Shown here: one piece after another, positions 29,251-58,454 of the stretch
Layout: the number at the start of each line of letters is the position of its first letter
Position numbering within the stretch: the first letter of the stretch is position 1
Assembly (NCBI GenBank): GCA_015143295.1
Contig: CM026559.1
Coordinates: 24,628,826-24,692,825, forward strand
DNA from: Tetracentron sinense
Taxonomy: Eukaryota; Streptophyta; Magnoliopsida; Trochodendrales; Trochodendraceae
Length of the DNA: 64,000 nt
Direction: 5' to 3'
Program-made: the position numbers and the translations under genes
The notes under the pieces: model-generated
Seen by the model: the letters and a program-made list of their open reading frames with translations, nothing else
What the model was told of the DNA's origin: nothing
Database searches by the model: none

Positions 29251-30248
29251 GCAAAGCATATTTTAGGATATGCCCTACTCCTAAGCAAAACATATCTTAG
29301 GATATGTCCTACCCCTATTACCAACCCTTACGTTTGGCCTTGTCATAGTTGTCGTGAATCGAGACTAAAACCCTTGTTCTTGAAAAACCCGATAAACCAT
29401 GTCATGCATGTTGTTCTCGTGAAATCGTGTACAATTAACTCATGAAATTAAATAAAACATGATAGGCTCAAAATCATTCACGGCAACATTTAATATCAAG
29501 GCGATTAAATTTACAAGTATGCAATTCTAGAAAGCAAGTGAGTCTATAATCATGCCATTCTAAAAAGCGAGTAACACACTATCATAAACCCTAGAGATTT
29601 CTATATGCTTTAAATCATACATTTCTTAATTTGTATTTCCTTTTCCTCACCTTGGCATTTCATCAAACATATAGTGTGTACATTATGGGTAACACCTAAA
29701 TCTTGCTTTTCTAGATGGGTTAAGCTCATAGCACGCATGTGTGTTCATTATTGATACGATGCCCTTCCCATTTCAATCATCACAAACATACACATGGCAT
29801 CCGTCACCCAACATTCATATCCATCCATATCCATCCACAATCCATCTCCTATCATATCCATACTTTAGGAAAACAAAGAAGAAAGAAAGAAAAAGGGAGA
29901 ATATGAACTAGGAGTGTAGTATAGGGTACCGACCTTGAAGAAGGAAAGAAAAACCCTTGCAATGATGAGGATGAACGCTGCCCTAGCTTGGAGAACGTGC
30001 TCTTCACATGCTTGAAGTCGGATTTGGAGAATCAAAGTCAATGGGATGATCTTGGGTAGCCAAACCCTTGATTTCTCCTCAAGCTTAAAACCCTAGGTTT
30101 GAAACCCTCTTCCTCTCCTCTACTCTCTCTCAAAATGATGCTAAGTATGTTGTGAGGGGGCCCAAGGCTCGAGCCAGCCTTTATAGGCAAGGGTGTAGTG
30201 CCCAAAACACTAGAAAGCCCTTAATGAAATTTTTGCAAAACGCGATAG

Positions 30249-30465
30249 ACCGATCGATCGGTGGTCAATACCGAGCATTCGGTCGCCTACCGAGCGACCG
30301 GTGTTCTCGACCGAGCAATCGGTCAAAAACACCCTCGCTGGAAAAATTCCCCATACAAATTAGTTAACCAGTCGATAGCTACCAATCGATTGATTGTGGA
30401 CCAATCAATCGCTATTTTGAACCGAGTGATTGGTTTTGGACCGGTTGATCGCTCTAGCGATCAGT
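30249..30465 (-). promoter_or_regulatory. Palindrome module in solo LTR (minus strand)
   Basis: Plus-strand 14-mers at 30249 (ACCGATCGATCGGT), about 30270, 30289 and 30310, a core whose minus strand reads 'tagctatcgactggttaac' and 'tttgtatggggaattttt', then four or five decayed copies to about 30465 (for example ACCGAGTGATTGGT at 30421). GCTATCGACTGG is shared exactly with SA/SB. Several copies show CG to TG or CA changes. Confidence 0.75.
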
Positions 30466-31491
30466 TCTCTACAAAAACGCATTTCGGTATTTTGGCCATA
30501 ACTTTTAACTTGTTCGCCAGATTTCAACGATTCAACTTGCGTTGGATTCATTTTTCGAAGGGGCACATGTCTGGCATCAGAATTTTCAAATTCTTCTTTA
30601 TTCATTGACCAAATTACCCCTAAAGGTAACTGATCTGTAAATGGAGTTCAATAAACAGGATTTTAACATACCCGACTTAGGAATCCCACTTCTCAACACT
30701 TAACATTTTTTAAAATTTCTCCTTTCATAGAAATAGAAGATTATAAAGGCTTAAAGCCATGGCACGGATTCTAATACATGGGCAAAAGTTTCGGGGATCT
30801 ACACGTAGAGACATAAAGCATAGAGCAAAACCATAGAGCCAATACAATAGAGATCTTAGAGCATTTCGTTTATGATCCTTAGAGCTTCTGAACCGATCTT
30901 AGAGCTTATCATAGAGTTCTTGTGAGTGTGTATCATGATCCTCAGAGCTTGTGAACCGATCTTAGACAAATCATAGAGTTGCTTAAAATCATTCCTTATA
31001 AGTCATTTATTGAAAACCCTTTTTTGTAACTTTGAGAACTCCATCGAAAACATCGGTCCATGCGAGACATGCGAGCATATGAGCATACAAGAGTACTAGC
31101 ATATTTTGACACCCAAAAACTCTTAGAGGCATTACATCAAACACTTAGAGTGCATCATAGTAATATCTTACATTCAAGCATACAAACCACCCTTCATACC
31201 AACAATAAATCAAGAGATATACATATGGAATAAGAAGAACATCACAAGGTAACTAGTAGTATTGCAAGATTGGTAGTAGAGTGTATCTACCTTGGTGAAA
31301 TCAATGATTTTGATTCCAAAAGCTTGGAACACTTGAAAAACTTGAGTTCTTGGTCGAGAAACACCAAAAGAATGGAAGAACCTTGATCATCCTTCAAGCT
31401 TGAGCAACACTTAGTTCTTCTTCTTCTTCTCCTCTTAAAATCCTCCAAAAACAATGCACTAAGGGTTACTGAAACCCTAAGGCACGAACCC

Positions 31492-31731
31492 AGCCTTTAT
31501 ATAGGCAAAGGGTGATGGCTAAAGTCTTAAACACCCTTAATGAAGAAAATCTGTGTATAACCGATCGATCGGTGGTACAGATCGAGCGATCTGTGGCTTA
31601 CCGGTCGATCGGTGGTTTCAACCGGTCGATCGGTTGAAAACACCCTCTCTGGAACTTTTGCCCATACAAATAAGTTAACCAATCGATCGGTAGAAGACCG
31701 GTCGATCGGAGGTTATCACCGAGCGATCGGT
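31492..31731 (-). promoter_or_regulatory. G6 3' LTR palindrome module and TATA box
   Basis: Minus-strand order: three 14-mers (31731 downward), a core reading 'atttgtatgggcaaaagttc' and 'cagagagggtg', four 14-mers to 31560, then 'cctatataaaggc' at about 31493-31505. Intact copies include ACCGATCGATCGGT at 31560-31573. The module lies in the LTR of an element whose pol is clearly Gypsy. Confidence 0.8.
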
Positions 31732-31965
31732 GCTCCCCAGTTTTCTGCAATACCCTGTTTTCACTACTTGAATCTTCCCCAATCCCATTTCTATCAACTG
31801 AAATGCTTAAAATACACTTCTTAAGAATATGTGGATCTATTAAAACATGCATGCCATAAATCCAAACACGTATATCAACATAAAGCCTATTAGTGAACAA
31901 AACCACACTTGGGCACTACTCCCACACTATTCACACTTAGTGAGATACGGATTTGAGGCTCTACA

Positions 31966-31979
31966 TCCCTCCCCCCTTA
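31966..31979 (-). other. G6 polypurine tract
   Basis: Minus strand reads AAGGGGGGAGGGA immediately before the 3' LTR start TGTAGAGCC. It is preceded by 'ccaatttcgaggacgaaatt', the usual context of the purine tract in chromoviruses. Confidence 0.85.
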
Positions 31980-32055
31980 CAAGAATTTCGTCCTCGAAAT
32001 TGGAACGTCACCAAAACATAACAAGAGCAAAATACATACAATCCAATGAAGAAAA

Positions 32056-32391
32056 CTACTCAAACAAGTGAGGGTACTTTTCCTTCACTTCGGCTTCTCG
32101 CTCCCACGTAGCTTCTTCCTTGGAATGATGTTGCCACTTCACAAGAACTAAAGGGATAGTCTTGTCGCGCAAGACTTGAACTCTACGATCCAAAATCTGA
32201 ACTGGTTGCTCAACTAAAGTGAGATCCTTTCTAATCTCCACAGGATCAAGAGCAATGGCGTGTGACAGATCCGGAATGTATTTCCTAAGTATAGAGACGT
32301 GAAATACATTATGAACCGCTGCCATGTGAGGCGGTAGGGCTACCCTATAAGCAACCTCACCAACCCTTGTGGTGATCTCAAATGGGCCCAC
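32056..32391 (-). pseudogene. pol: G6 integrase C-terminus and chromodomain
   Basis: Open for 111 residues. MGPFEITTRVGEVAYRVALP and HNVFHVSILRKYIPD form the integrase C-terminal (GPY/F-type) region. LVKWQHHSKEEATWERE is a chromodomain core, with two of the aromatic-cage positions plausible (Trp in VKW and in ATWE). Chromodomains direct integration of chromoviruses towards particular histone marks. The frame stops at its natural end just before the purine tract. The domain looks intact, but the element is otherwise dead. Confidence 0.85.
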
Positions 32392-33540
32392 CTACCTAGG
32401 GTTGAGTTTTCCTTTCTTTTCGAACCTCATGATTCCCCGACTCGGAGAATTCTTCAGAAAGATCTGATCCCCAACTTGGAATTCCAAATCTCTACGACGC
32501 GTGTCCGCATAGCTCTTCTGCCTATCCTGAGCAGTTTTCAGTCACTCCCTGATTACCTTGACCATCTCTGCAATCCGCTCAATCAATTCAGGACCAAGGA
32601 CCTTTCTCTCACCAACCTCATCCCAGTATAGCGGTGATTTACAACTCCGACCATAGAGAGCTTCGAAAGGCGCCATTTGGATGTTTGCCTGATAACTGTT
32701 GTTGTAGTCAAACTCAACCAATGGCAAGTGTTCCTCCTAACTGCCCTGAAAGTCTAGCATACAAGCTCAGAGCATATCCTCCACAACTTGATTTACCCTC
32801 TCAGTCTGCCCATTGGTTTGACGATGGAAGGCGGTGTTTAAATCTAACCGAGAACCCATAGCACTCTGACAAGTTTTCCAAAATCTGGAAGTGAACCTAG
32901 GATCTCGATCAGACACGATGGAAACAGGCACACCATGCATCCGAACCACCTCCTTGACATACAGGGCCACCAACTGATTCGAACTAAAAGTAGCCTGATA
33001 CGGAAGGAAATGTGCAGACTTAGTCTATCTATCTACTATCATCCAAAATTGCATCGGAGCCCTTCGTTGTCCGTGGAAAACCCACGATGAAATCCATCAA
33101 AATATTCTCTCATTTCCATTCCAAAATAGGAAGGGACCGTAAAAGACCTGCCGGCCTCTGATGCTCGACCTTCACCTGCTGGCACACCAAACATCTAGAA
33201 ACATACTCGGAGACTTCTCTCTTCATGTTTCAGCACCAGTAGTGCCTCTTGAGATTCTGATACATTTTGGTACCTCCCGGATGTACCGTGTACTTGGATT
33301 GGTGAGCCTCATCCAAAATCTCACCCCTCAACACTGTGTCGGCGGGAACACACAACCTGCCTTCGAATGTGATAGCACCATCACCATTCAAAGCGAACTC
33401 CTGACTGCCATTACTAACAGACTTGTCTCGTTAAGCAAGCAAATCAACATCCAAGTTCTGCAACTCCTTGATCTGGCTCAAAATATGCGGCTTAACCGCG
33501 ATGTTGGACAACACCAGCCCGTAGGTGACATGCCTGAGAG
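32392..33540 (-). pseudogene. pol: G6 integrase (fragmented)
   Basis: Minus strand. 32973-32767 carries the integrase core with the second Asp (IVSDRDPRFTSRFW) and the catalytic Glu (FHRQTNGQTERVNQ). 32727-32542 carries PLVEFDYNNSYQANIQMAPF and EALYGRSCKSPLYWDE, typical of the Gypsy integrase C-terminal half. The N-terminal HHCC zinc finger and the first Asp lie in 33000-33480 in shifted frames. Stops and frameshifts between blocks abolish function. Confidence 0.82.
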
Positions 33541-34930
33541 TAGTCTCTAGATTACACATATCATATAACAACTTCACTCTTGTACTTTCAAGTGAGCCAT
33601 AACCCCATTGGGCTTCCTACTAAGAGCATCGGCTACCACATTAGCCTTACCCGGATGGTACTAGATAGAACAGTCATAGTCCTTCATAAACTCCATCCAT
33701 CGACGCTGCCTCATATTCAACTCCTTCTGGAGGAAAAGATATTTCAAGCTCTTGTGGTCCATAAACACAACGAACTCTTCCCCATAGAGGTAGTGACGCT
33801 ATATTTTCAGCACAAAGACGACTGCTACAAGCTTTAAGTTGTGCGTGGGGTAGTTCTGCTCATGCTCCTTCAACTGATGTGAAACATAGGCAACCACCTG
33901 CTTATGTTGCATAAGAACACATCCAAGTCCTACAAGTGAAGCATCACTATAGACTTCAAAACCATTGCTTCCAGACAGAACCGTGAGAACAGGGGCTGTG
34001 GTAAGCCTCTTCTTCAACTCCAAGAAACTTGCCTCGCACTTGTCACTCTAAGTGAACTTAGTGTTCTTCCGTGTGAGGTAGGTAAGCGGAGCTGCTAAAC
34101 TTCAAAATCCCTCAGTGAACCTCCTATAGTATCCTGCCAGGCCGAGAAAACTACGAATCTCAGTAACACTCTTCGGCCTTTCCCAATTCATCACCGCCTC
34201 AATCTTTGCAGGATCGACTGAGATACCTTCAGCAGACACCACATGTCCAAGAAAAGACACCTTGTCTAGCTAGAACTCGCACTTACTCAACTTAGCATAA
34301 AGCCTATGCTCTCGAAGAGTCTGCAATACAAGGCAGAGATCTCTCATGTGATCATCCTGTGACTGTGAGTACACAAGGATATCATCTACAAATACGATCA
34401 CACACTGATCGAGAGATGATCTGAACACCCAATTCATTAGATCCATGAATGCTGCCGGTGCGTTAGTCAGCCCAAAAGACATGACCAAAAACTCTTAATG
34501 GCCATATCGAGTTCTGAACGCAATCTTCGGAATGTCTTCCTTCTTGATCTTCAGCTGATGATAACCAGATCAAAGGTCAATCTTTGAGAAGAACCTTGCA
34601 CCCTTCAACTGATCAAACAAGTCATCTATCTGAGGCAATGGATAACGATTCTTGATAGTGACCTCGTTCAATTACCTATAGTCGATACACATACGCATCA
34701 ACCCATCCTTTTTCTTCACAAAGAGCACTGGAGCTCCCCAAGGTGAGACATTAGGCTGGATGAAACCAAAGCCCTGTAATTCTTCCAACTGCTCCTTTAA
34801 CTCTTTGAGCTCAATAGGGGCCATCCTATACAAAGCCCTTGAAATCGGCGCCGTGCCCGGAGCTAACTAAATAGCAACTCGATTGCCCGATCAGGAGGTA
34901 ATCCCGATAAGGTGTCCGGAAAAACATCCA
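33541..34930 (-). pseudogene. pol: G6 reverse transcriptase and RNase H (fragmented)
   Basis: Minus strand. The RT N-terminus begins near 34930 with EYMDVFPDTLSGLPPDR, standard for Gypsy pol. 34488-34270 carries [18 protein letters not shown] and the catalytic FVDDILVYS. 34060-34230 carries the thumb. 34023-33799 carries the RNase H start ([18 protein letters not shown]), followed by DHKSLKYLF and, near 33600-33660, YHPGKANVVADALSRKP. Numerous stops. No protease or gag precedes it. Confidence 0.85.
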
Positions 34931-35210
34931 TATACTCACATACCACCGGAATGGATGTGGAGCCTCGTACCTCTACATTCGCGAGACTAAGGACATAGTT
35001 TAACTAGAACCTAGAATAGGATCCTAGACTGATCTAAGGATTCATTTGATACCGGTTATGTCGTGGTAACAAGCCTAACTCAACAAGTCCATCTGAGTTA
35101 TAAGTTCAACTCAGAGAACTCACTTCCGCTTAGCCTAAGGGAAACCGATCCCTAGAGCAGAACAACTCTAGTTCCAACTTAAAAGACACTAGCCTATGTG
35201 ACCTAATGCC
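34931..35210 (-). other. G6 leader joined directly to pol (gag and protease missing)
   Basis: Only about 280 bp separate the PBS from RT, where a chromovirus normally has 2-3 kb of leader, gag and protease. No zinc knuckle or aspartic protease motif is present. The junction is an internal deletion, placed roughly at 34940-35000. Confidence 0.7.
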
Positions 35211-35225
35211 TTGGCTTTGATACCA
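35211..35225 (-). other. G6 primer binding site
   Basis: Minus strand TGGTATCAAAGCCAA, four bases inside the 5' LTR end; complementary to initiator Met tRNA with one departure (AAAGCC for AGAGCC). Confidence 0.88.
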
Positions 35226-35229
35226 AGTT

Positions 35230-37106
35230 TGTTGCGACCCAAAATACCCCCTAAGAGTTAGGGATACTTTGATTCGTGACCACCGTATCATACATCCATA
35301 TGATACATAAGGCACATGAACAACCTGTCATAGCACACAGATATACACAGCAGAAATGATTTAAAATGTACAATGGAAGTAAAACATACTAACATAGCGA
35401 AAGCCAAAATAATACTGAATACTCCTATCGATTAGTTCAAGTATGAACCAACAAAATACAACTGTATAAATATCCAAAATGTGGAGTGGACAAGTCCCAC
35501 TCTCACTTAACAAAACACTGTATCTTTCTAAGTCGATCAACAAAAATTGAAGTCACGATACCTATCTAACGAACCATCGTCCTAGCAGTGATCCATGGAA
35601 GGCTCCGGGTCGAAGTACTCCTCCTCTACCCAACGCTCCGTGCCACACAAATCAAAAGTAGCCCGAGCACCTGTCGATGATAACAAATATCGGCTGAGCG
35701 TGGAATACTCAGCATATACAAACTAATAACAATTAAGCAATATAGCATAAAGCATACGGAGCATGGAGACTGAAATCCTCAAGGTATATCAAAGCGTAAA
35801 AACTGTGAAATAGCATGTGAGATGAGATCCAAAACCAAAACCAAAGCCAATACCATGTGATTCAAGTGATAATCATAGTCTTGTGAATTATTGTGAGTTC
35901 ATGGAGTTCATGGAGTTACTTAGAGTCATTTATGATCCGTAGAGACATAGAGCATAGAGCAAAACCATAGAGCCAATACTATAGAGATCTTAGAGCATTT
36001 CGTTTATGATCCTTAGAGCTTGTGAACCGATCTTAAGGCTTATCATAGAGTTCTTGTGAGTATGTATCATGATCCTTAGAGCTTGTGAACCGATCTTAGA
36101 CAAATCATAGAGTTGCTTAGAATCATTCCATATAAGTCATTTATTGAAAACCCCTTTTTGTAACTTTGAGAAATCCATGGAAAACATCGGTTCATGCGAG
36201 ACATGTGAGCATATGAGCATACAAGAGTACTAGCATATTTTGACACCCAAAAACTCTTAGAGGCATTACATCAAACACTTAGAGTGCATCATAGTAATAT
36301 CTTACATTCAAGCATATAGACCACCCTTCATACCAATAATAAATCAAGAGATATACATATGGAATAAGAAGAACATCACAAGGTAACTAGTAGTATTGAA
36401 AGATTGGTAGTAGAGTGTATCTACCTTGGTGAAATCAATGATTTTGATTCCAAAAGCTTGGAACACTTGAAAAACTTGAGTTCTTGGTCGAGAAACACCA
36501 AAAGAATGGAAGAACCTTGATCTCCTTCAAGCTTGAGCAACACCTAGTTCTTCTTCTTCTTCTCCTCTCAAAATCTTCCAAAAACAATGTACTAAGGGTT
36601 TGTGAAATCCTAAGGCATGAACCCAGCCTTTATTTAGGCAAAGGGTGATGGCTAAAGTCTTAAACACCCTTAATGAAGAAAATTTGCGTATAATCGATCG
36701 ATCGGTGGTATAGACCGAGCGATCTGTGGCTTACCGGTCGATCGGTGGTTTCAACCGGTCAATCGGTTGAAAACACCCAAATTTTTCCCCATACAAATAA
36801 GTTAATCAGTCGATAGCTACCGATCAATCGGTAGAAGACCGGTTGATTGGAGGTTATCACCGAGCGATCGGTGCTCCCCTGTTTTCTGCAAAATCCTGTT
36901 TTCACTACTTGAATCTTCCCTAATCTCATTTCTAACACCTGAAATGCTTAAAAGACACTTCTTAAGAATATGTGGACCTATTAAAACATGCACGTCCTAA
37001 ATCTAAACACGTATATCAACATAAAGCCCATTAATTAACAAAACCATACTTGGGCACTATTCCCACACTATTCACACTTAGTGAGATACGGATTCGGGGT
37101 TCTACA
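35230..37106 (-). repeat. G6 5' LTR (1877 bp)
   Basis: TGTAGAACCCCGAATCC at 37106 to GGGTCGCAACA at 35230 on the minus strand. Matches the three pieces of the 3' LTR. Contains the module (36693-36872), a leader ending 'ccaaggtagatacactctac' near 36415, the hairpin 'gctgagtattccacgctcagc' near 35690-35710 and the terminal 'agggggtattttgggtcg'. Confidence 0.9.
36624..36872 (-). promoter_or_regulatory. G6 5' LTR palindrome module, decayed
   Basis: Same 3 + core + 4 order as the 3' LTR copy, but the core has lost part of its CCAGAGAG stretch and several palindromes show CG to CA or TG changes: ACCGGTCAATCGGT where the 3' LTR has ACCGGTCGATCGGT, and CGGTTGATTGG where it has CGGTCGATCGG. The TATA equivalent near 36625-36637 reads CCTAAATAAAGG. 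Confidence 0.72.
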
Positions 37107-39519: not shown

Positions 39520-40751
39520 TGTAAATCCCTAAATAGGTGTTGAAAAATTCCGTGATCATTAGATAGGTCATGTGAGTCGAGTCGTCGAGTCATGTTCAAC
39601 TTGTCAGAAGAGAAGAGCTAAAGCTTAAAGAAGATTGAAGAAAGTGAAGAAAAAGCTCCTACTCTGGATCTAGAAAGGTAATGGACTTAGAGACCCCTAC
39701 CTAGGTTGGATTTGGCTTAGATAACTCTAAACATACCTAGGAGGATAGTTTTAAACCTAACAAAGTTGTTTGAGTTTAGTTGAATCAAATAAACATGAAA
39801 AGACATATGGTTTGAAAAAAATTTTGTCTCAACCGATCGCTCGGTATTGAGACCGATCGATCGGTGGCCTACCGAGTGATCGGTGGCTATCGACTGGACC
39901 AAAATTTTGTATGGGGTATTTTTCCAGAGAGATGATTTTCAACCGCTCGATCAGTCATGGGAACCGAGCGATCCGTTTTGGACTGAGCGATCGGTAATGA
40001 GCACCGATCGATCGGTCCCCGTAAAAAGAATTTTTATTTTTCTGGATTCTTTTTCTAAACCCTATATAAACAACTTTTTGGAGACCTAATTCGTATCTTT
40101 GTTTATTTTTGAAAGAGTAGAGGTCTAAGAAACTCTTCTAGGGTTTTTCCTATTGCTTTTATTAGATCTTTGTTGATCCCTCCTCTTTCTTTGATCCTAG
40201 AGAATGCAAGTATAGATCTAAACCTTTGATCTTGCATTGTGTGATCTCAGATCTGTATGAGATCCCTCTAGGGTTTGAAACTTTCTAAATTGATTCACAA
40301 CCCTACACCTTGTGTGTGTGTCCGGTGTTTGATCCGGAGCCTTCGTGGAAGGAGATCGATCGTGTGTGATCGTGGTTTTGAAGTAGCTTGAGAAGATTTG
40401 GTCGGTGTGGAACCGAAGCTGCTACGGCGGAGATCGAACCTGCTGGTTCGTGGAAATCAAGAGTAAGAGTCTATACCTAGGAACGTCGTTTCTGTTTTGG
40501 TAAGGTCTTGTCTTGTACTTGATATCTTTTCATAGTGAAGTTTATTGCTGGACAAGGTCCCGTGGTTTTTTTCCCGTTAGGGTTTTCCACGTAAAAATCT
40601 TCTGTGTTTGATTTGTGTGGATTTTCTGAGTGAATTGTTCATTGATTTCTAAACATATTAATTAAAAAATTAAAAATTGGTTAGAAATTATTAGATAGAC
40701 CTATTCACCCCCCCTCTAGGTCTTAGAGATCATTGATCTGGATAAATTTCA
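39520..40751 (+). repeat. SA 5' LTR (1232 bp)
   Basis: TGTAAATCCCTAAATAGG to GGATAAATTTCA. Contains a 'gtcgagtcgtcgagtc' short repeat near the start, the palindrome module 39832-40016, TATATAAA at 40063-40070, a leader with 'gtgtgtgtgtccggtgtttg', and the C-loop inverted repeat at 40698-40722. Confidence 0.93.
39832..40070 (+). promoter_or_regulatory. SA 5' LTR promoter: palindrome module and TATA
   Basis: 14-mers at 39832, 39852 (ACCGATCGATCGGT) and 39871; then GGCTATCGACTGG and a core with TTTTGTATGGGG and TTTTCCAGAGAG at 39903-39931; then 14-mers at 39942, 39963, 39982 and 40003. TATATAAA at 40063-40070. Promoter function is inferred from the TATA box and its position upstream of the gag leader. 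Confidence 0.82.
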
Positions 40752-40753
40752 AT

Positions 40754-40765
40754 TGGTATCAAAGC
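40754..40765 (+). other. SA primer binding site
   Basis: TGGTATCAAAGC two bases inside the 5' LTR; initiator Met tRNA type with the same AAAGC variant seen in SB and G6. Confidence 0.9.
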
Positions 40766-40818
40766 GAGTTCACTGATAAGGCTAATCCTTTAAGTGTGAT
40801 CCTGTATTATCCGTGATC

Positions 40819-42785
40819 ATGAGTACTCTAAGAGAAGGAGGATCCGTCTCTCGTCCCCCACTTTTTGATGGAAATAATTATGCATACTGGAAAGCTAGAA
40901 TGAGAGCCTTTCTCAAATCAATTGACGAGAGAATCTGGATGTCTATACAGAATGGGTGGACTACGCCCATAAAAACTGTAGGTGATTTGACTGTCGTCAA
41001 ATATTTTGATGAATGGACCAGAGAAGAGCTTGAGTCAAGTGGATGGAACACTAAAGGTCTCAATGCTATCTTTACTGCAGTCACTGCTGAGGAATTCAGA
41101 CGAATTTCTTCATGTGAAACAGCAAAGGAGGCTTGGGACATTCTTGAAATTACCCATGAGGGTACTACCACTGTTAACATCTCAAAACTCCAAATGTTAA
41201 CCACCAAATTTGAACATTTAAACATGGATGACAATGACACGTTTGATGAATTCTATGCAAAACTTAGTGACATTGCCAACGCTAGTTTCAATTTAGGTGA
41301 GAAAATATCTGAGTCCAAAATAGTTAGAAAAGTCCTTTGATCTCTCCCAGAGAGATTTCAACCCAAAGTCACTGCAATCGAAGAGAGTAAAAATGTTGAC
41401 TCTCTGAAGATTGAGGAATTGGTTGGTTCACTCCAAACCTATGAACTCAATCTCCGTCCATCCAAGAAGAACAAATCTTTAGCCTTGAAATCCATCAAGG
41501 AAACTTTGGATGAGGATGACAGTGATGGAGATATGAATGAGGAAGAAATGACTCTCTTCGTTAAAAAATTTCGAAAAATTTTTTAGAACGAAAAGAGGTT
41601 TAATCCCAAACAGGGAGGAAAATCTTTTGAGAAGTCAAAGTCTAAGCCCTGGGAAAACAAGAAAAATTCCAAGAGTGGCGACAAGAAATCCCAAGGTGTT
41701 CAATGTTATGAATGTTATGGCTTCGGTCATATTTCACCTAACTGTCCTAACAAGAAGAAGAATAAGGGCAAGGTGATGAATGCCTGTTGGGATGACAGTG
41801 ATTCCGAGAATGAAGAATCGGACAGTTCCTCTTCAAGTGAAGATACTGGAAATCATACGGCTTTCACTGTTTCCCTTTCTGGGATTCTTGAGACTACCTC
41901 TGCGGTTGATGAAAAGGGTAGAAGTGATGAGAGAGTTCATACTGAGTCTAGTGATGACATACAGAAAAGTCAAACTGATTCTGAAAGTGATGAAAATTTG
42001 AAAACAACTTATGATAAGTTGTATGCTGAAAGTTTGAAACTGACTAAAACAAAAATCTCCTTGAGCAAAAAACTCAAAATCATTCAAAATGAAAGAGATA
42101 TTTGTAAACTAGTAACAGAAGAGAAGAGTGCTCTAGTTAGTCAGTTGGAAAATGAAAAAGAAGCATTTGTTATGAAAGTTCAATGTCTTTTGGAAGAGAA
42201 TGTCTCATTGACTAATGTGATCAGAAAATTAGAAGTTGAAAGAGACACTTCCATGAAAGAAATTGAAGAGTTAAGAACTCTGCAAATGGAGCTGGAAACT
42301 TTTAAAGACTCTCTTGTTGATAAGGTGAAATTTCTTGAAAAAGAACATCAAATTACCCTTAAAGACAAGACTGACTTGATTCAGAAGGTCTATACTCTTG
42401 AAAAAGAAGTAAGAATGTTTGGTAACACCAGCTGCCTAGATGAATTAGTTAGAAAGTATGGGTCAAATTCGAGTAGATCTGGGATAGGACATGCTGACAC
42501 ACCAGCTGGTCCTTTAGCTGTTGGTACAATGGCTAGTGCAGTGTTTGAGCCAATACATTCTGATCCTAAAGTGAATCTACCTTCTACATCATGTACTAAG
42601 GCTTATACAAATTTTGTAAAGCCTAGAAATACAGCTCCTAGAGTGAATGCTTTGAGGAATCAAATTCCTGTTAGAAGAAATTCTCCTCCTCTCCCAAGAT
42701 TCATACCCACATGTCACTTTTGTGGAGTGAGAGGTCACATACGACCTTATTGTAATGCTTTTAGGAGAGCTCCTCAAAATGGTTC
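40819..42785 (+). pseudogene. gag: SA gag, interrupted by SB
   Basis: ATG at 40819 (MSTLREGGSVSRPPLFDG); the frame extends six bases further upstream without another ATG. Residues 1-170 are the UBN2-type Gag core (YWKARMRAFLKSID, SCETAKEAWDIL). In-frame TGA at 41338, and a local shift giving TAG near 41584 that is soon compensated. First knuckle CYECYGFGHISPNC at about 41702-41745, an acidic Ser-rich tract, a ~150-residue coiled coil to about 42450, and second knuckle [14 protein letters not shown] at about 42713-42756. The frame breaks at 42785 where SB begins; the rest of the tail is at 53927. Related Sirevirus Gags have been reported to bind host dynein light chain LC8; I see no basis to test that here. 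Confidence 0.88.
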
Positions 42786-44002
42786 TGTAAATCCCTAAAT
42801 AGGTGTTGGCAAATTCCGTGATCATTAGATAGGTCAGTTGAGTCGAGTCGTCGAGTCATGTTTAACTTGTCAGAAGAGAAGAGCTAAAGCTTAAAGAAGA
42901 TTGAAGAAAGTGAAGAAAAAAAGCTTCTACTCCGGATCTAGACAGGTAATGGACTTAGAGACCCTATCTAGGTTGGATTTGACTTAGATAACCATAAAAA
43001 TACCTAGGAGGATAGTTTTAAGCCTACCAAGATATTTGATCTTAGTTGAATCAAATAAAAATAAAATGAAAATGGTTTTGGCAAAATTTCTGTCTCAACC
43101 GATCGCTCGGTATTGCGACCGATCGATCGGTGGCCTACCGAGCGATCGGTGGCTATCGACTGGACCAAATTTTTGTATGGGGAAATTTTCCAGAGAGGTG
43201 ATTTATAACCGAGCGATCGGTCATTAGAACCAATCGATCCGTCTTGAACCGAGCGATCGGTAGTGAGCACCGATCGTAAAAAGAATTTTTCTTTTTCTGG
43301 ATTCTTTTTTTAACCCTATATAAACAACTTTTGAGAGACCTAATTCGTGTCTTTGATATTTTTGAAAGAGTAGAGGTCTGAGAAACTCTTCTAGGGTTTT
43401 TCTTATTGCTTTTATTAGATCTTTGTTGATCCCTCCTCTTTCTTAGATCCTAGAGAATGCAAGTATAGATCTAAATCTTTGATCTTGCATTGTGTGATCT
43501 CAGATCTGTATGAGATCCCTCTAGGGTTTGAAATTTACTAAATTGGTTCACAACCCTACACCTTGTGTGTGTGTCCGGTGTTTGATCCGGAGCCTTCGTG
43601 GAAGGAGATCGATCGTGTGTGATCGTGGATTTGAAGTTGCTTGAAAAGATTTGGTCGGTGTGGAACCGAAGCTGCTAAGGCGGAGATCGAACCTGCTGGT
43701 TCGTGGAAATCAAGAGTAAGAGTCTATACCTAGGAACGTCGTTTCTGTTTTGGTAAGGTCTTGTCTTGTACTTGATATCTTTTCATAGTGAAGTTTATTG
43801 CTGGACAAGGTCCCGTGGTTTTTTCCCGTTAGGGTTTTCCACGTAAAAATCTTCTGTGTTTGATTTGTGTGGATTGTCTGATTGAATTATTCATTGATTT
43901 CTAAACATATTAATTGAAAAATTAAAATTGGTTAGAAATTATTAGATAGACCTATTCACCCCCCCTCTAGGTCTTAGAGATCATTGATCTGGATAAATTT
44001 CA
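42786..44002 (+). repeat. SB 5' LTR (1217 bp)
   Basis: TGTAAATCCC...ATAAATTTCA, next to the PBS. Shorter than the 3' LTR by 20 bp: it lacks one 9-bp unit of the 'gtcgagtc' repeat near 42843 and 11 bp at the last palindrome (43276). Confidence 0.93.
43098..43324 (+). promoter_or_regulatory. SB 5' LTR promoter: palindrome module and TATA
   Basis: Three 14-mers from 43098, GGCTATCGACTGG, a core with TTTTTGTATGGGG and TTTTCCAGAGAG, then four more, the last cut to ACCGATCG at 43269-43276. TATATAAA at 43317-43324. Confidence 0.82.
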
Positions 44003-44004
44003 AT

Positions 44005-44016
44005 TGGTATCAAAGC
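44005..44016 (+). other. SB primer binding site
   Basis: TGGTATCAAAGC, two bases after the LTR end, same as in SA. Confidence 0.9.
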
Positions 44017-44069
44017 TTGTTCACTGATAAGGCTAATCCCTTAACTGCGATCCTGTATTATCCGTGATC

Positions 44070-46250
44070 ATGAGTACTCTAAGAGAAGGAGGATCCGTCT
44101 CTCGTCCTCCACTTTTTGATGAAAATAATTATGCTTATTGGAAAGCTAGAATGAGAGCCTTTCTCAAATCTATTGACGAGAGAATTTGGATGTCTATACA
44201 GAATGGGTGGACTACGCCCGTAAAAACTGTAGGTGATTTGACTGTCGTCAAATATTCTGATGAATGGACCAGAGAAGAGCTTGATTCAAGTGGATGGAAC
44301 ACTAAAGGTCTCAATGCTATCTTTACTGCAGTCACTGCTGAGGAATTCAGACGAATTTCTTCATGTGAAACAGCAAAGGAGGCTTGGGACATTCTTGAAA
44401 TTACCCATGAGGGTACTACCACTGTTAAAATCTCAAAACTCCAAATGTTAACCACCAAATTTGAACATTTAAACATGGAAGACAATGACACTTTTGATGA
44501 ATTCTATGCAAAACTAAGTGACATTGTCAACGCTAGTTTCAATTTAGGTGAGAAAATATCTGAGTCCAAAATAGTTAGAAAAGTTCTTAGATCTCTCCCA
44601 GAGAGATTTCAACCCAAAGTCACTGCAATCGAAGAGAGTAAAAATGTTGACTCTCTGAAGATTGAGGAATTGGTTGGATCACTCCAAACCTATGAACTCA
44701 ATCTACGTCCATCCAAGAAGAATAAATCTTTAGCCTTGAAAACCATCTAGGAAACTTTGGATGAGGATGACAGTGATGGAGAAATGAATGAGGAAGAAAT
44801 GGCTCTTTTCGTTAAAAAATTTCGAAAATTTTTTAGAACGAAAAAGAGATTTAATCCCAAACAGGGAGGAAAATCTTTTGAGAAGTCAAAGTCTAAGCCC
44901 TGGGAAAACAAGAAAAATTCCAAGAGTGGCGACAAGAAATCCCAAGGTGTTCAATGTTATGAATGCCATGGCTTCGGTCATATTTCACCTAATTGTCCTA
45001 ACAAGAAGAAGAGTAAGGGCAAGGTGATGAATGTCTGTTGGGATGACAGTGATTCCGAGAATGAAGAATCGGACAGTTCCTCTTCAAGTGAAGATACTGG
45101 AAATCATACGGCTTTCACTGTTTCCCTTTCTGGGATTCTTGAGACTACCTCTGCGGTTGATGAAAAGGATAGAAGTGATGAGAGTATTCATACTGAGTCT
45201 AGTGATGACTTACAGAAGAGTCAAACTGACTCTGAAAGTGATGAAGATTTGAAAACAACTTATGATAAGTTGTCTGCTGAAAGTTTGAAACTAACTAAAA
45301 CAAAAATCTCTTTGAGCAAAAAACTCAAACTCATTCAAAATGAAAGAGATATCTGTAAACTAGTAGCAGAAGAGAAGAGTGCACTAGTTAGTCAGTTGGA
45401 AAATGAAAAAGAAGCATTTGTTATAAAAGTTCAATGTCTTTTGGAAAAGAATGTCTCATTGACTAATGTGGTCAGAAAATTAGAAGTTGAAAGAGACACT
45501 TCCATGAAAGAAATTGAAGAGTTAAGAACTCTGCAAATGGAGCTGGAAACTTTTAAAGTCTCTCTTGTTGATAAGGTGAAATTTCTTGAAAAAGAACACC
45601 AAATTACCCTTAAAGACAAGACTGACTTGATTCAGAAGGTCTATACTCTTGAAAAAGAAGTAAGAATGTTTGGTAACACCAGCTGCCTAGATGAATTAAT
45701 TAGAAAGTAGGGATCAAATTCTAGTAGATCTGGGATAGGACATGTTGACACACCAACTGGTCCTTTAGCTGTTGGAACAATGGCTAGTGCAGTGTTTGAG
45801 CCAATACATTCTGAACCTAATGAAAATTTACCTTCTACATCAAGTACTAAGGCTTATACAAATTTTGTAAAGCCTAGAAATACAGCTCCTAGAGTGAATG
45901 CTTTAAGGAATCAAATTCCAGTTAGAAGAAATCCTCCTCCTCTACCAAGATTCATACCCACATGTCACTTTTGTGGTGTGAGAGGTCACATTCGACCTAA
46001 ATGTAATGCATTTAGGAGAGCTCCCCGAAATGGTTCATGGAACCAAAATCAAAGTCAAGGGACTCTTCAAAGGCAGATTCAGGTTCTAGCTGAAAAGTCT
46101 AGAATGTTGAGCGATGATGTTAATAGAATTGCTCAAATCTCTGGGACAAGAACTGGTCAATTTATTCCAAATGATTATTCAAGAGGAAATAATTTGACTT
46201 ATCAAAAAACTAGAACTGAACAAAACAGAAAAAGGTCAAGGAGGACAAAA
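44070..46250 (+). pseudogene. gag: SB gag, same frame as pol, two in-frame stops
   Basis: ATG at 44070 (MSTLREGGSVSRPPLFDE); an in-frame GTG lies six bases before it, but ATG is the plant-like choice. Gag core to about 44700; TAG at 44748 where SA has an AAG codon. First knuckle CYECHGFGHISPNC at 44955-44996, acidic Ser-rich stretch, long Leu/Lys/Glu coiled coil at 45250-45690. TAG at 45708 where SA has TAT. Second knuckle [14 protein letters not shown] at 45963-46004, then a basic tail ([11 protein letters not shown]). Gag runs into protease with no frame change, so gag-pol is one polyprotein. Only the two stops break it. Confidence 0.88.
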
Positions 46251-48884
46251 AGGAAAAAGGTCTCTACTACACAGATTAATGATCAAAGATTTAAACAAAG
46301 TTTAAAGACTGTGTATGTAAGAAAGGAAGACCTTAAGTGCTTTGTCATTCATACTGCCTTGAAAGCCCAAAACACAGAAATGTGGTACTTCGATAGTGGG
46401 TGTTCTCGGCATATGACAGGTAACAAGTCCTTATTTATTCAATTTGAGGACTGTCCTGATGAGACTGTTACTTTTGGTGATGGAAGCAAGTCTTTAGTCA
46501 AAGGAAAGGGTATCATCGATTCACCAGGCATACCTAAATTGAAAGATGCCTTGTTTGTTGAAGGACTGAAAGCTAATTTAATTAGCATAAGTCAACTATG
46601 TGATGATAATCATGCTGTGCACTTTACCCAAAATAAATGCTTAGTCATTAATGGTAAAGGTAAGTGTGTTCTAGAAGGATTGAGAACCACTGACAATTGC
46701 TACGGCTTAACTCCCAGTCCTATTCCCTCAAATGTCTGTTATAAGACTAAAATTGAGGAGGTTGATTTGTGGCACCGAAGACTAGGTCACATGAACTTCA
46801 AAGACCTATGTAAAATCTCTAAGCAAGAGCTTGTGAGAGGTGTTCCCAAACTAGGAAAGCCTTCTACTGCTGTGTGTGGGGCATGCCAAATTGGTAAACA
46901 AATTAGGACCCCACATAAGAAGACTTCAAGTATTGCTACTTCATATCCACTGGAATTAATTCATATGGACCTTATGGGTCCTACAAGAACTGAAAGTCTA
47001 GGTGGAAAGCGATACATCCTAGTCATGGTTGATGATTTCTCAAGAATGTCATGGGTGGCATTTATAAGAGAGAAATCCGATGCTTTTGACAATTTCAAAA
47101 GTATTTGCCTGAAAATTCAAAATGAGAAAAGATGCCCAATCACTCGAATTCGAAGTGATCATGGAAAGGAGTTTGAAAACTCTAAGTACAACGACTTTTG
47201 TGATGAGTCGGGTATCAAACATGAATTTTCTGCACCTATTACACCTCAGCAGAATGGTGTAATAGAGAGGAAGAACAGAGTTCTCCAAGAGATGGCTAGA
47301 GTTATGCTTCATAGCAACAATCTAGCTTCTCATTTCTGGGCTGAGGCAGTTAACACTGCTTGCTATATAGTTAATAGAGTTTTTGTAAGACCTGGAACAA
47401 GGAAAACCCCATATGAGTTGTGGAATAACAAGAAACCTAGTGTTAAATACTTTCGAGAATTTGGAAGTAAATGCTATATCCTTAAGGATAGAGAGCAACT
47501 GGGCAAATTTGAATCCCGGAGTGATGAAGGGATATTTCTTGGATATTCCACCAACAGTAGAGCTTATCGAGTGTATAACTTGAGAACCTCTACAATTATG
47601 GAGTCCATAAATGTAGTTGTGGATGACTCCGGTGTTGAAAATGTGCAACGTGAGGATGATGAAAGTGCTGAAAATGAAAATGTTGAAATTATCTCAACTC
47701 CACCTATTGATAAGCAAACATCTCCATTAAAACCTACACATCCTAGGGTCATGAGTCCTCACACCCCCACTGATATAATTGGTGATGTTGAAAGTGGAGT
47801 GAGAACGAGGAAACAAATTGAAAATGAAGTTAGCTACATTTGCTATACTTCATCTTTTGAACCCAAGAATGTAGCTGAAGCTCTTGCAGATGATAATTGG
47901 ATAAATGCAATGCAAGAAGAGTTACTTCAGTTTACTAGGAATGATGTTTGGTATTTAGTACCTAGGCCTAACAATACAAATGTGATAGGTACCAAATGGA
48001 TTTTCAAGAACAAATCTGATGAAAAAGGTACTATCATAAGAAATAAGGCTAGGTTAGTTGCACAAGGATACACCCAAATTGAAGGTATTGACTTCGATGA
48101 AACTTTTGCTACTGTAGCCAGGCTAGAATCAATAAGAATTCTTCTAGCTGTGGCTTGTAATATGAAATTCAAACTTTTTCAAATGGATGTTAAGAGTGCC
48201 TTTCTGAATGACATTCTACATGAAGAAGTCTATGTGGAACAACCAAAAGGGTTTGAAGATCCACATCACCTTGATCAAGTTTATCAACTAAAAAGGGCCC
48301 TCTATGGTTTAAAGCAAGCTCCAAGAGCTTGGTATGAGAGGCTGACTACGTATCTCTTGGAAAATGGATTTTCGAGAGGGGGAGTAGACAGAACCCTTTT
48401 CATAAAGAATGTGAAAGGTGATATTGTCATCGCCCAGATATATGTTGATGACATAGTATTTGGTTCCACATTAGACTTACATGCTCATTCATTTGCTGAA
48501 CAAATGAAAAATGAATTTGAAATGAGCATGGTTGGTGAGCTAAGTTTCTTCCTTGGTCTTCAGATCAAGCAATTGGATTCTGGGATCTCAGTATCTCAAA
48601 TCAAATATGCAAAAAATCTAGTGAAGAAATTTGGAATGAGTTCTGCTAAGCATGCTAGGACTCCTATGAGTACTACTATAAAGCTTAGTAAAGATACTTC
48701 AGGGAAGGATGTCGATCAGACTAATTATAGAAGCATGATTGGTAGTTTGCTCTACCTAACTGCTACTAGACCCGACATAGCCTTTAGTGTTGGAGCATGT
48801 GCCCGTTATCAAGCAAATCCCAAAGAGTCTCACTTAGTTGCTGTCAAGCGTATCATTCGCTATGTGAGTGGACTATGTCCTTAG
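45780..48884 (+). CDS. pol: SB pol: Gag tail, protease, integrase, reverse transcriptase (1034-residue open frame)
   Basis: Longest open frame in the window; the ATG at 45780 is internal to the gag-pol frame (open from 45711) rather than a true start. Domains by residue: second zinc knuckle 62-75; protease [12 protein letters not shown] (DSG at 46392-46400) about 203; pre-integrase [11 protein letters not shown] about 330; integrase core with D in [10 protein letters not shown] in RSDHGKEF and E in VIERKNR, about 395-505; RT about 730-930 with YVDDIVFGS (48441 onward), [10 protein letters not shown] and [17 protein letters not shown]. One suspicious residue is FATVARLE, where relatives have FAPVARLE. 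The frame is lost at 48884 by a 1-bp deletion at the start of RNase H. Confidence 0.88.
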
Positions 48885-49383
48885 GCCTCTGGTATTCTTT
48901 CGATACAAATGTCATTGTCGTGGGGTATTCCGATGCTGATTGGGCTGGAAATACTGATGATAGGAAGAGCACCTCCGGCGGGTGTTTCTATATTGGAAAC
49001 TGCTTAGTTGCTTGGCTTAGCAAAAAGCAGAATTCCATTTCCTTGTCTACAGCCGAGGATGAGTATATAGCAGCTGGTAGTTGTTGCACCCAACTTCTGT
49101 GGATGAAACAGATGTTGAAGGATTATGGGATTGATCAAAGCACTATGATTGTGTATTGTGATAACACAAGGCAATCAATATCTCCAAAAATCCCGTACAA
49201 CACTCTCGCACAAAGCATATAGACATTAGGCATCACTTCATCCGTGATCTTGTTGAGCAAAAAGTTGTGTCTAGTGAGTATGTCCAAACAGAGAATCAAT
49301 ATGCGGACATTCTCACAAAATCTTTAGATTCCCTTAGGTTTGAACTCCTTAGGAAATCCATCGGTTTGTGCGAAGTTGAGTAA
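48885..49383 (+). pseudogene. pol: SB RNase H, two frameshifts
   Basis: After the 1-bp loss near 48872 the RNase H continues in another frame to 49222: [20 protein letters not shown] (first Asp), AEDEYIAAGS (Glu; relatives read AEAEY) and MIVYCDNTR (Asp). A second 1-bp loss near 49168 shifts it again; the end ([15 protein letters not shown]) is in a third frame, with TAA at 49381-49383. SA has the intact equivalent at 56600-57273. Confidence 0.85.
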
Positions 49384-50560
49384 TGGTGTACTTGTTTCAT
49401 AGCCTATGTGTTCTTCATGTTCTATTTATGTCATAGAGCTATTTTTTTTGTTATTTCTTTAATTAATAAAAATCCAAAAAACATTCAAAAAATTGAAAAA
49501 TATTGACAAAAAATAATGTGTTTGTATGACCTTATTTATCCTATCTTTTGCTTAATGTTATTTCCTTGAAATCATATTTAACCATATAATCCAAGGATAA
49601 ATATTTCATAGGATTGAATAAAATAGGATAGTTCAATTGTTGGTTCGATCTTGTGATTGAATTTGGTCATGCTAATTAACCTCAGTTAGAGTTGAGCATA
49701 CAATGATGTTCTAATTTGCACATGCACTCTGACTGATTCTTTAGATGGTTTTAGTTCCTATTTAAAGGTTCTGATATTATACCATATGGTTCCTAGATTA
49801 ATCAAATCTAGATAACAATGTCATAAAAAATTCCATAAGGTGAGCCCCCTAGATATAAAAATTATTGACATGGAGAGGACTACCTGTGAGTTTGTGTGAT
49901 AGCTACGAGTGAATGCAAACAGTGAGTAATGGCTACCTAGACAAACAGTAGGTATCTATATGGATTGCTAGTGTGAAAGCCCCTACTGTCATTAGAAAGA
50001 GCTACCTTCTCACTTGAGTGAAAGTCACCAGTGTGCTAGAAACTATATATGTGTACTCCAAAAAGAATTTTCACAATGAGTACAATTTGACTGAAAAAGA
50101 AATGAAATAAATTGTTAGTCAAATTTGGGGTAAAAATTGCTCATCATATAAATATGGATGATTATTGGTTTTAAAACTAGTTTTTGAAAATTTTAGAGTC
50201 CCATTTGAAATATAATGTCAAAATCTAGATTAAGGAAGGAAACCAATTCAAAGAGTCAAGTAATGAATTTTTATTTCATACTCACATTACTTCTAATTGT
50301 ATCTTGACTCTGATTGTGAATTTGATGCAAATACCATATTTTATCACTAGTGAAAATCAATTAATGATTACATAATCCTTGTTTATGCCTATACTTGATA
50401 TATATCAATTCTTGGGTGATTATTATTAATGATTTTTATGAAATCACATGTTGCTATTTTTTTTTGGTCGTTGGTCATTTTGAGGTGAAAATGTTTTTCA
50501 ATGTTCCATTGGTTGAGGGGAAAAAGGTTTTAACTAGTAAAAATTTTTGAAAAATTTTCA
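49384..50560 (+). other. SB spacer between pol and 3' ORF, non-coding
   Basis: No gene. AT-rich, highly similar to 57274-58450 of SA and to 6128-7000 of S1, so it is a conserved part of the element. Contains 'aaaaatccaaaa' runs just after pol. Confidence 0.7.
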
Positions 50561-50564
50561 GACC

Positions 50565-50622
50565 ACCGATCGCTCGGTGCTAAAGACCGATCGATCGGTC
50601 TTTCGTGAACAGTGTTATAAAA
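50565..50622 (+). promoter_or_regulatory. Candidate internal promoter of SB 3' ORF: two palindromes plus TATAAAA
   Basis: ACCGATCGCTCGGT at 50565-50578, ACCGATCGATCGGT at 50586-50599, TATAAAA at 50616-50622, then a ~200-bp pyrimidine-rich leader to the ATG at 50821. This mimics the LTR promoter order in miniature. Transcription from here is inference. Confidence 0.55.
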
Positions 50623-50820
50623 CCTCATTTCTATTTTTTTTGTTCACTTGTTCTCCGACCTCCAGAGCGATCCCTCGGTTCCTACTCCTCAAAATCCTCC
50701 ATACGGTCATTCCTTTCTATTCTAAAGGTTTCCCAAGCATCTAAAAGGTAAGATTTGTGCATTTTCTTCGATTTAGATTGATTTTCTCGTCTAGGGCATC
50801 GTTTTCTTGCATTTTCTTCC

Positions 50821-52102
50821 ATGGCTTTCGTTTTGTCGTTAATCCTTCTTGCCGATCTCATGTCTGGCGTTCCCAAACGTCGGAGGTTGGTCCTCAACAA
50901 CCAAGAGGATCCTCCTCAAGATGAGGAAAACCTAGAGCCATCTACTTTCACTCCAGTAGGCATGGTATTTCTATTGGGGACAGGCCAATTCGTAGAATCA
51001 TTGATTTACTGCTGAGAATCGCCAAAAGGCTTTGGCTGATAAAACTGGTAAAAACAAGGGTAAAGCCTCATCTTCTCATGCCAGTCGATCATCTTCTTTC
51101 ATTTCCTTCGGCTGCTCAACTTTACCGTGAATATTTTAGCAAGAAGGCTATCATGGTTGAGCGAGGAATTCAAATTTCAGACTTTGATGATTATTACCTT
51201 CCTAAGCTCATTGCCGATCGTCAATGGGAAGGTATTCTCAATCTATCATGTCCAGCTCCTATTCAGTTGGTTCAGGAATTTTATTCAAATTTTCTAATAT
51301 TAACTTGAAAACTTGGTCTTTCAAAACTAGAGCTTTAGAAAACTCTGTGGTAATTAATCCTAATTTGATTGCTGCTATTCTTGGTTGTCCTCGAGTTCCA
51401 AATGCTTATTATCCTTATAGATATAAGACTGATGAGGATAAAGAAACCATGGAACAAGTTGTTACTTTTCTAAGTGGCACTCCTTCATTTTGGGTTGGTT
51501 CTCTAATTGAAGTGTCTAAACTCACTAGGGATGCAAGACTTGTAAACCTAGTCATGAGTGCCAATATCCACCCAAAGGTTCATACTGCGGACCTTAGGGA
51601 AGAAAGAGCTCGTTTTCTATTTCTTCTTCGTGGGCATGATATTGATCTTGCAGCACATTTTATCGATTTGATGATCCAAGCTCATCGATCTGACACTGTA
51701 GTTGGAGCCCTTCCTTTTGGATCTCTTATCACTAAACTTCTTGGTTTACAAGGGGTATTTGCACCTCCTGGTGGTCCTACTAGAGTACCGAAGGGTCCAA
51801 TCAATAAAAAGACCCTATCTCAGAGTTTCTCACATGCCTCAGTTCGAGATACAGAGGAGGGAGCCGAAGTTGGTGTTGGGTCATCTCGTCCTCCTCCGAC
51901 CACTATGGATGATCTTGGGAGGATGATGCGAGAGATGCAGATGGATCTCCGGACTCATATTTCATCATACGAGGAGTTTACTACAGAGGTTCGTGGTAGA
52001 CTTGGATCTCTCGATGCAGCCGTGCTAGGAGTACAGAGAGATGTTCGAGATTTTCGAGCTTACTATGAGTCACAGCTCACTTCTGATGATGAGCAGGAGT
52101 GA
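50821..52102 (+). pseudogene. SB 3' ORF, plant transposon protein family, two frameshifts
   Basis: ATG at 50821 (MAFVLSLILLADLMSG), or the next in-frame ATG 13 codons on (MSGVPKRRRLVLNN). A 1-bp loss near 50960 and another near 51290 split it into three frames; the longest, ending at 52102 (TGA), holds most of the protein. Recognisable blocks: QLYREYFSKKAIMVERGIQI, QLVQEFYSNF, RALENSVVINPNLI, CPRVPNAYYPY, DARLVNLVMSANIHPKVH, AHFIDLMIQAHR, ALPFGSLITKLL, and a C-terminal amphipathic region. This matches the plant 'putative plant transposon protein' family (Pfam Transposase_32) as I know it; its biochemical role is unknown. It occupies the place of the env-like ORF of SIRE1. Confidence 0.75.
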
Positions 52103-52301
52103 TAGTTAATGATAGGATTTTATCTTAGTCGAGTGACAGTTTTTATTTGACATTTTGATGTATTTTGTCTTGGTTGTACTTAGTACAAACCTTTTTGGAT
52201 ATTATTGACTTGTTATGGATGTATACATTTGAATGGTTTATGCTCATTATTTTCTATCTCATCTCCTTTCAATGATTTATGCTTTCCTTTTCTAATCCAC
52301 C

Positions 52302-52677: not shown

Positions 52678-52689
52678 AAAGGGGGAGAT
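52678..52689 (+). other. SB polypurine tract (PPT2)
   Basis: AAAGGGGGAGAT directly before the 3' LTR start TGTAAATCCC at 52690; primer site for plus-strand DNA synthesis. Confidence 0.9.
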
Positions 52690-58450: not shown

Positions 58451-58454
58451 GCCA

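Follow-up and report, generated by a model that had tools for sequence, protein, structure and literature searches.

A palindrome module common to Copia and Gypsy-type long terminal repeats in Tetracentron sinense

Overview of the locus and of the module

The DNA analyzed here (64,000 nucleotides of contig CM026559.1 from Tetracentron sinense, referred to below as the 64-kb window) is AT-rich, with 37% GC, and is occupied by nested long terminal repeat (LTR) retrotransposons of plant type. A module of about 185 bp, composed of 14-bp palindromes around a core, is carried by the U3 region of nine of these LTRs: four belong to two Copia elements that appear to be Sireviruses (SA and SB), and five are of Gypsy type, comprising both LTRs of a chromovirus (G6), the LTR G3, and the solo LTRs S1 and S2 (Table 1). 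The initial annotation of this DNA had placed modules in these nine LTRs, and all of them are present. All carriers examined lie within this one window.

The palindrome box, ACCGATCGATCGGT, is 14 bp long and has the half-sites ACCGATC/GATCGGT. With up to two mismatches it occurs at 59 sites in the window, as compared with 0.05 expected (100 dinucleotide shuffles, the largest count being 1), an excess on which chance was rejected as the source of the boxes. Every one of the 59 sites sits either in the nine LTR modules or in two internal palindrome pairs, whereas a search with up to four mismatches found none in five of five other stretches (both LTRs of another Copia element, 38455-39514, 61798-64000, and 1-7511). 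Complete modules occur within the window in LTRs only, the internal pairs having no core, and viral contigs gave no match to the core or palindrome patterns.

In reading direction, three palindromes are followed by a core of about 57 bp and then by four further palindromes; the core opens with the degenerate palindrome GCTATCGACTGG and then contains TTTGTATGGGG..TTTTCCAGAGAG. The start-to-start spacing is 20, 19, 71, 21, 19, 21 in both SA modules, the 3' SB module, and S1; it is 20, 19, 71, 20, 19, 20 in G3 and 21, 19, 71, 21, 19, 21 in S2, and the two G6 LTRs have 21, 19, 65, 21, 19, 21 and 21, 19, 57, 21, 19, 21. The palindrome lattice is nearly identical, base pair for base pair, between the superfamilies, and both the orientation relative to the LTR and the position in U3 are alike in nine of nine modules. 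The order of three palindromes, core, and four palindromes that had been proposed for most copies was recovered. The deviating count ascribed to S2 resolves into the same seven palindromes plus two weak ones on the 5' side, and the module is not uniform throughout, those at 43098, 31560, and 36693 departing from it as listed in Table 1.

Table 1. Coordinates of the palindrome modules, of the internal palindrome pairs, and of the elements discussed in the text
Feature	Positions	Strand	Remarks
SA 5' LTR module	39832..40016	+	Palindromes at 39832, 39852, 39871; core 39885-39941; palindromes at 39942, 39963, 39982, 40003; TATA box 46 bp on
SA 3' LTR module	60878..61062	+	
SB 5' LTR module	43098..43276	+	Last palindrome about half missing; end coordinate that of the initial annotation
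SB 3' LTR module	53011..53195	+	
G3 LTR module	19003..19185	+	Gypsy type via 75% similarity to G6 LTR
Solo LTR S1 module	25571..25755	+	
Solo LTR S2 module	30249..30465	-	Two weak extra palindromes on the 5' side (3 and 5 mismatches)
G6 3' LTR module	31560..31731	-	14 bp shorter
G6 5' LTR module	36693..36872	-	Core 6 bp shorter
SA internal palindrome pair	58455..58489	+	Starts 58455 and 58476, 21 bp apart; 16 bp upstream of TATAAAA (58506)
SB internal palindrome pair	50565..50599	+	Starts 50565 and 50586; 16 bp upstream of TATAAAA (50616)
Sirevirus SA (putative)	39520..61796	+	LTRs 39520-40751 and 60567-61796; target site duplication GAGTT (5/5); interrupted by SB
Sirevirus SB (putative)	42786..53926	+	LTRs 42786-44002 and 52690-53926; target site duplication GGTTC (5/5); nested in SA
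SA ENV-position ORF piece	58911..59945	+	PF20167 (Transposase_32) match
SB ENV-position ORF piece	51206..52099	+	PF20167 match
Gypsy chromovirus G6	25091..37106	-	5' LTR 35230-37106; primer binding site 35225; target site duplication 4/5; 3' LTR split by S1 and S2
Solo LTR S1	25359..27848	+	Target site duplication CATTG (5/5); inserted in G6 3' LTR
Solo LTR S2	28276..30803	-	Target site duplication TGTAG/CGTAG (4/5); inserted in G6 3' LTR
R1	1..1968	+	Gypsy-type LTR with S1/S2 5' U3, without module; cut by window start, right end approximate
R2	20712..22200	+	Gypsy-type LTR with S1 5' U3, without module; right end arbitrary

Core and lattice match across superfamilies

All four SA/SB modules and S2 contain the core word GCTATCGACTGG without a change, precisely the five copies in which it had been reported as identical. 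TTTGTATGGGG is exact in both SA modules, S1, S2, one of the two G6 modules, and one of the two SB modules (a single change separates the second SB copy), and TTCCAGAGAG is exact in both SA modules, one of the two SB modules, S1, and one of the two G6 modules. Because such short words are not rare on their own (19.3 and 6.5 chance matches to TTTGTATGGGG and TTCCAGAGAG, respectively, are expected at the mismatch levels searched), their evidential weight lies in their conserved order.

Compared core against core, 20 of 20 Sirevirus-Gypsy pairs beat all 2000 mononucleotide shuffles (z 4.8 to 10.5). When the palindromes and the lattice were held fixed and only the other bases were shuffled, eight of eight cross-superfamily pairs beat all 1000 shuffles (z 3.9 to 7.1), in a comparison of SA 39832 and SB 53011 with S1, G3, S2, and G6 36693, the other three modules being left out. 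Independent palindrome arrays, the alternative against which the initial annotation had asked that the modules be aligned, are rejected on these results, both the core order and the fixed-lattice shuffles lying far beyond chance. Module identity is 65% to 75% across superfamilies and 73% to 80% between Gypsy families. It is the core and the lattice that establish a common origin; the palindromes themselves resemble one another too closely to be informative.

Elements that carry the module

The SB pol open reading frame (ORF; 45711-48881) contains Pol_BBD, gag_pre-integrs, rve, SH3_retrovirus, and RVT_2, and the Copia order of pol, with integrase before RVT_2, is found both there and in the SA ORF pieces 53921-55468 and 55459-57270. 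Between pol and the 3' LTR each of the two elements has an ORF in ENV position that matches PF20167 (Putative plant transposon protein). The polypurine tract GGGGGAGA occurs in SA at 58407, 60243, and 60558 and in SB as a single exact copy at 52681, and it stands at both 3' LTR borders; 3' of both 5' LTRs lies TATCAAAGC, one base off the 9-bp Sirevirus primer binding site TATCAGAGC (PMC2829016). SA and SB are probably Sireviruses, a call made on the pol order, the ENV-position ORF, and the GGGGGAGA tracts. A tandem recombinant was considered for SA/SB and dropped; the target site duplications show SB nested inside SA.

G6 has coding pieces between 32059 and 34494 with RVT_1, RNase H, integrase zinc-binding, SH3, and chromodomain: four of its eight pieces matched RVT_1, RNase H (twice), and integrase zinc-binding, and another matched SH3 and Chromo. 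The chromodomain adjoins the 3' LTR, and a primer binding site and a purine tract lie beside the 5' and 3' LTRs, respectively. The 3' LTR of this one chromovirus hosts two solo LTRs of related type in opposite orientation. The G3 LTR is 75% similar to the G6 LTR over 1.7 kb. Alignment to the G6 LTR yields three colinear blocks for S1 and two for S2, and these two solo LTRs have the start TGTAG..CCCCG in common with it. G3, S1, and S2 would thus be of Gypsy type by LTR similarity to G6 only, with the termini as a further sign in S1 and S2. All hosts had been regarded as firmly typed by their own pol genes and target site duplications, which holds for SA, SB, and G6 (4/5 in the duplication of G6) and does not for G3, S1, and S2.

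Unrelated flanks and relatives without the module

LTR sequence outside the module had been described as unrelated between the superfamilies, and our local alignments agree. In the most stringent comparison, in which the whole upstream U3 and 400 bp downstream were aligned locally (SA or SB versus the four Gypsy-type LTRs, one LTR each), 16 of 16 cross-superfamily scores fell within 300 dinucleotide shuffles, the lowest count of shuffles reaching the real score being 36. A block test resolved the LTRs into a mosaic. In it the S1 module scored z 44 to 71 against S2, G6, G3, SA, and SB; S1 and these five carry the module, which R1, R2, and the LTR of a different Copia element lack; the S1 5' U3 was strong (z >20) in S1, S2, R1, and R2 only; the S2 downstream block occurred in S1, S2, G3, and G6, and the G6 5' U3 in G6 and G3; and the SB upstream and downstream blocks were confined to SA and SB. 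The largest off-type score (R1 versus the SB downstream block) was z 4.5. That the Gypsy copies are inserted fragments of Sirevirus LTRs, a possibility that the initial annotation had itself raised, was rejected: the module lies inside the continuous alignment of the G3 and G6 LTRs, with no Sirevirus flank beside it. Because the fixed-lattice match holds and insertion of Sirevirus fragments fails, the sharing of a cassette of about 185 bp across superfamilies, as first proposed, is well supported.

The module-free LTRs R1 and R2 (absent, like the internal palindrome pairs, from the initial annotation) match the 5' U3 of S1/S2 to about 20 to 50 bp from the module position and then diverge. R2 has a TATA-like site (21257) within about 30 bp of the shared part, and in R1 about 200 bp of different sequence precede the TATA-like site. 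Since R1 and R2 have the S1/S2 5' U3 without the module, gain, loss, or exchange at this slot in Gypsy-type LTRs was independent of the 5' U3. As a separate observation, the module slot of R1 (430-660) holds four partly palindromic CCCAAACGTCGA-like repeats at 469, 490, 532, and 572 (spacing 21, 42, 40); with up to two mismatches, CCCAAACGTCGA has nine matches in the window versus 1.7 expected, five of them within R1 430-660.

The sharp edges of the module at palindromes, its absence from R1 and R2, and a strong strand fold would suit the insertion, in both LTR families, of a small mobile element (a miniature inverted-repeat transposable element or a foldback element). We regard this as hardly credible: orientation in the LTR and U3 position are the same in every module, no module lies outside LTRs in the window, the internal pairs have no core, and inspection of the flanks by eye, with no formal test, revealed no target duplication.

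Promoter context and possible function

A TATA match lies downstream of the module in seven of the nine LTRs. Its distance is +41 to +47 in the Sirevirus modules, all four of which have one, and +57 to +64 in the Gypsy-type modules, where three of five do. The ratio of observed to expected CpG is 1.6 to 1.9 in four modules versus 0.48 for the window (formal island criteria aside). Within a box the order is CCG...CGG, and CGGT...ACCG arises between neighboring boxes only. The variants in 71 palindromes, sites that are related by descent, comprise 100 one-sided and 3 two-sided changes, with 1 compensatory change as compared with 5.4 expected; being one-sided and not compensatory, they are indicative of protein half-sites rather than of a hairpin.

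The palindromes are used again inside SA and SB, where an internal pair followed by TATAAAA (58455-58512 and 50565-50622, respectively) precedes the ENV-position ORF. SA has nine boxes with at most one mismatch, namely seven per LTR (one LTR counted) and two internal ones. The pair with its TATAAAA is a candidate internal promoter of the ENV-position ORF. Taken together, TATA proximity, CpG density, one-sided variants, and internal reuse seem to indicate an enhancer recognized by a dimeric DNA-binding protein. A more specific version, which we consider quite unlikely, has the palindromes bound by a regulator that the Sireviruses encode (the PF20167 protein in ENV position, for example) and that controls both the LTR and its own internal promoter, the Gypsy chromoviruses having adopted the cassette; chromoviruses would then be switched on by a factor made by another superfamily.

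Probable origin and transfer of the cassette

The nine-module tree separates Sirevirus and Gypsy clades with 100% ultrafast bootstrap, the order within Gypsy being unresolved (48-49%). We consider it probable that the module is a U3 enhancer cassette of one origin that crossed a single time between a Sirevirus and an LTR of Gypsy chromovirus type, with inheritance inside each superfamily thereafter. The tree and the identities appear to fit one old transfer and not repeated recent swapping between superfamilies; recent local gene conversion was rejected, cross-superfamily identity being too low for it. The tree is unrooted, and a Sirevirus donor is our guess, prompted by the palindrome boxes that Sireviruses of other plants carry (PMC2829016).

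The mechanism that we propose starts from an array of half-sites about two helical turns apart on both sides of the core, in a cassette that, in LTRs with a TATA match, stands 41 to 64 bp upstream of it. A host transcription factor would most likely bind the palindromes as a dimer and the core would bind partner factors, so that LTR transcription would be switched on; Sireviruses may reuse the palindromes in the internal promoter of the ENV-position ORF. Transfer could have proceeded via recombination inside U3, for example by template switching between co-packaged RNAs, or alternatively through illegitimate recombination between nested copies, after which the cassette would have been inherited in each superfamily and the flanks would have diverged or been replaced.

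Several observations weigh against a single transfer of such an enhancer. The positional match of single palindromes is weak (an equally high score is reached by 266 of 5040 orders, in the same six modules as the fixed-lattice comparison), the 5-7-bp spacers differ between superfamilies, and the outer palindrome arrays could have been re-amplified. The SA and SB modules are 89% identical and their flanks 89% and 95%, the module being no better conserved. By the pattern used, S1 and one G6 LTR lack a TATA match downstream of the module. Three of the four Gypsy-type carriers (G3, S1, and S2) owe their Gypsy assignment to LTR similarity. In global alignments of 200-bp flanks, 2 of 16 cross-superfamily pairs, SA-G6 upstream (z 3.2) and SA-S2 downstream (z 3.5), exceeded all 300 mononucleotide shuffles, and for several others just 2 to 6 of 300 shuffles attained the score; the dinucleotide-shuffle test did not confirm this excess. 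Finally, in both modules folded, the module RNA folds better than 200 of 200 shuffles (z about -5).

The weak positional match of the palindromes and the differing spacers would suit convergence, in which identical sites in an identical geometry are selected by a complex of host factors without shared descent, and different Sireviruses do bear different palindromes at the same place (PMC2829016, Table 3). Convergence is nevertheless strongly disfavored and very unlikely in our judgment: the order and spacing of the core are far beyond chance, also with palindromes and lattice fixed, and convergence is implausible over so much mostly non-repetitive sequence.

The RNA fold bears on a different alternative, that the arrays are kept as RNA or DNA hairpins (as a small-RNA trigger or in a structural role) and not as protein sites; maize Sirevirus palindromes attract small RNAs, according to passages of PMC10760457 citing Bousios 2016. 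Any palindrome array folds, however, and the module RNA may fold just as any such array would; three cores folded no better than shuffles (z 0.65, -0.78, and 0.25), and the excess of one-sided over compensatory changes runs the other way. Hairpin-driven constraint was rejected as the main cause on the one-sided variants, and the alternative as a whole is highly improbable.

A further alternative is independent capture by both superfamilies, with a single host gene promoter or a third element outside the sample as the common source. The flanks of the two LTR types are unrelated, so that two captures would resemble transfer, and the cassette has the same LTR orientation and a similar U3 place in both superfamilies. 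The end points and the lattice would, however, have to be nearly identical in two captures, and Sirevirus-Gypsy identity is just somewhat below that between Gypsy families; we judge it unlikely.

Relation to known systems

LTR retrotransposons evolve in modular fashion, and recombination mosaics are known within a superfamily or involving coding domains. The cassette resembles these cases in being, by our account, a mosaic formed by recombination, and differs in that a U3 module extends across Copia and Gypsy. As a rule, the control region of an LTR is taken to belong to one family alone. A cassette common to Copia and Gypsy would mean that a retrotransposon's on-switch can travel apart from its enzymes, and unrelated families in one genome could then answer the same signal simultaneously; the same block in unrelated surroundings suggests that distantly related retrotransposons can swap control switches. 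The same lattice and core in unrelated backgrounds, together with module-free relatives and, at an internal TATA box, a version reduced to two boxes, also offer a natural comparison for factor finding.

The closest precedent, in the portions of the paper drawn on here, is that of Bousios et al. 2010 (PMC2829016), who described palindromic boxes from 13 Sireviruses, located ahead of TATA and again ahead of ENV, and termed them Sirevirus specific, absent from the classic Ty1/copia elements compared. These RM boxes and the module have in common many palindromic copies, mostly in the upper LTR half and shortly upstream of TATA, and a repetition upstream of ENV, with CpG islands there and a high CpG ratio here; the RM-box criterion of at least 8 copies per element is reached in SA. 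Because it is described there, the box position upstream of TATA and of ENV is known in kind. The differences, within the same portions, are that RM boxes are restricted to Sireviruses, whereas the box here is also found in G6, G3, S1, and S2; that a conserved core and a fixed lattice set the module apart; that ACCGATCGATCGGT equals none of the 13 consensus boxes of their Table 3; and that an internal TATA box is visible here, whereas PMC2829016 could not conclusively identify an internal promoter. RM boxes have a CGG-CCG core signature; here CCG...CGG is the order inside a box, and CGGT...ACCG that between neighboring boxes.

Maize Sireviruses likewise have palindrome clusters in the LTR cis-region (Bousios et al. 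2016, as cited in PMC10760457), with no sharing with Gypsy reported in the parts of PMC10760457 drawn on here; that 2023 maize study, in the same parts, places the Sirevirus palindrome also in Helitron regions and notes no obvious structure peak in Ty3 elements. An entry in the reference list of PMC11963269 concerns a Grande accessory gene transcribed from its own promoter, and PMC6911290 describes a weak insertion preference for short palindromes, with LTRs not commonly targeted. The single paper in which the palindrome string itself occurs deals with a regulator from bacteria. The initial annotation had held the sharing with Gypsy to be undescribed, and in the titles and abstract beginnings of the open-access literature (which excludes most subscription papers) there is indeed no report of a palindrome module common to Copia and Gypsy LTRs. 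What is new here relative to the initial annotation is the module-free R1 and R2 and the internal pair at a TATA box.

Further features of the elements

A large protein search with the PF20167 ORF of SA returned 2591 candidates, none at E <=0.001, and NCBIfam, a prokaryote library, gave no match for the ENV-position ORF of SA or SB. Tandem repeats lie inside S1 (26739-27134, about 65 bp) and S2 (28944-29238, about 57 bp). The LTR-like starts TGTAGAGCCCCG at 20517 and TGTAGAACCCCG at 20712, about 195 bp apart, suggest a further nested insertion that truncates G3.
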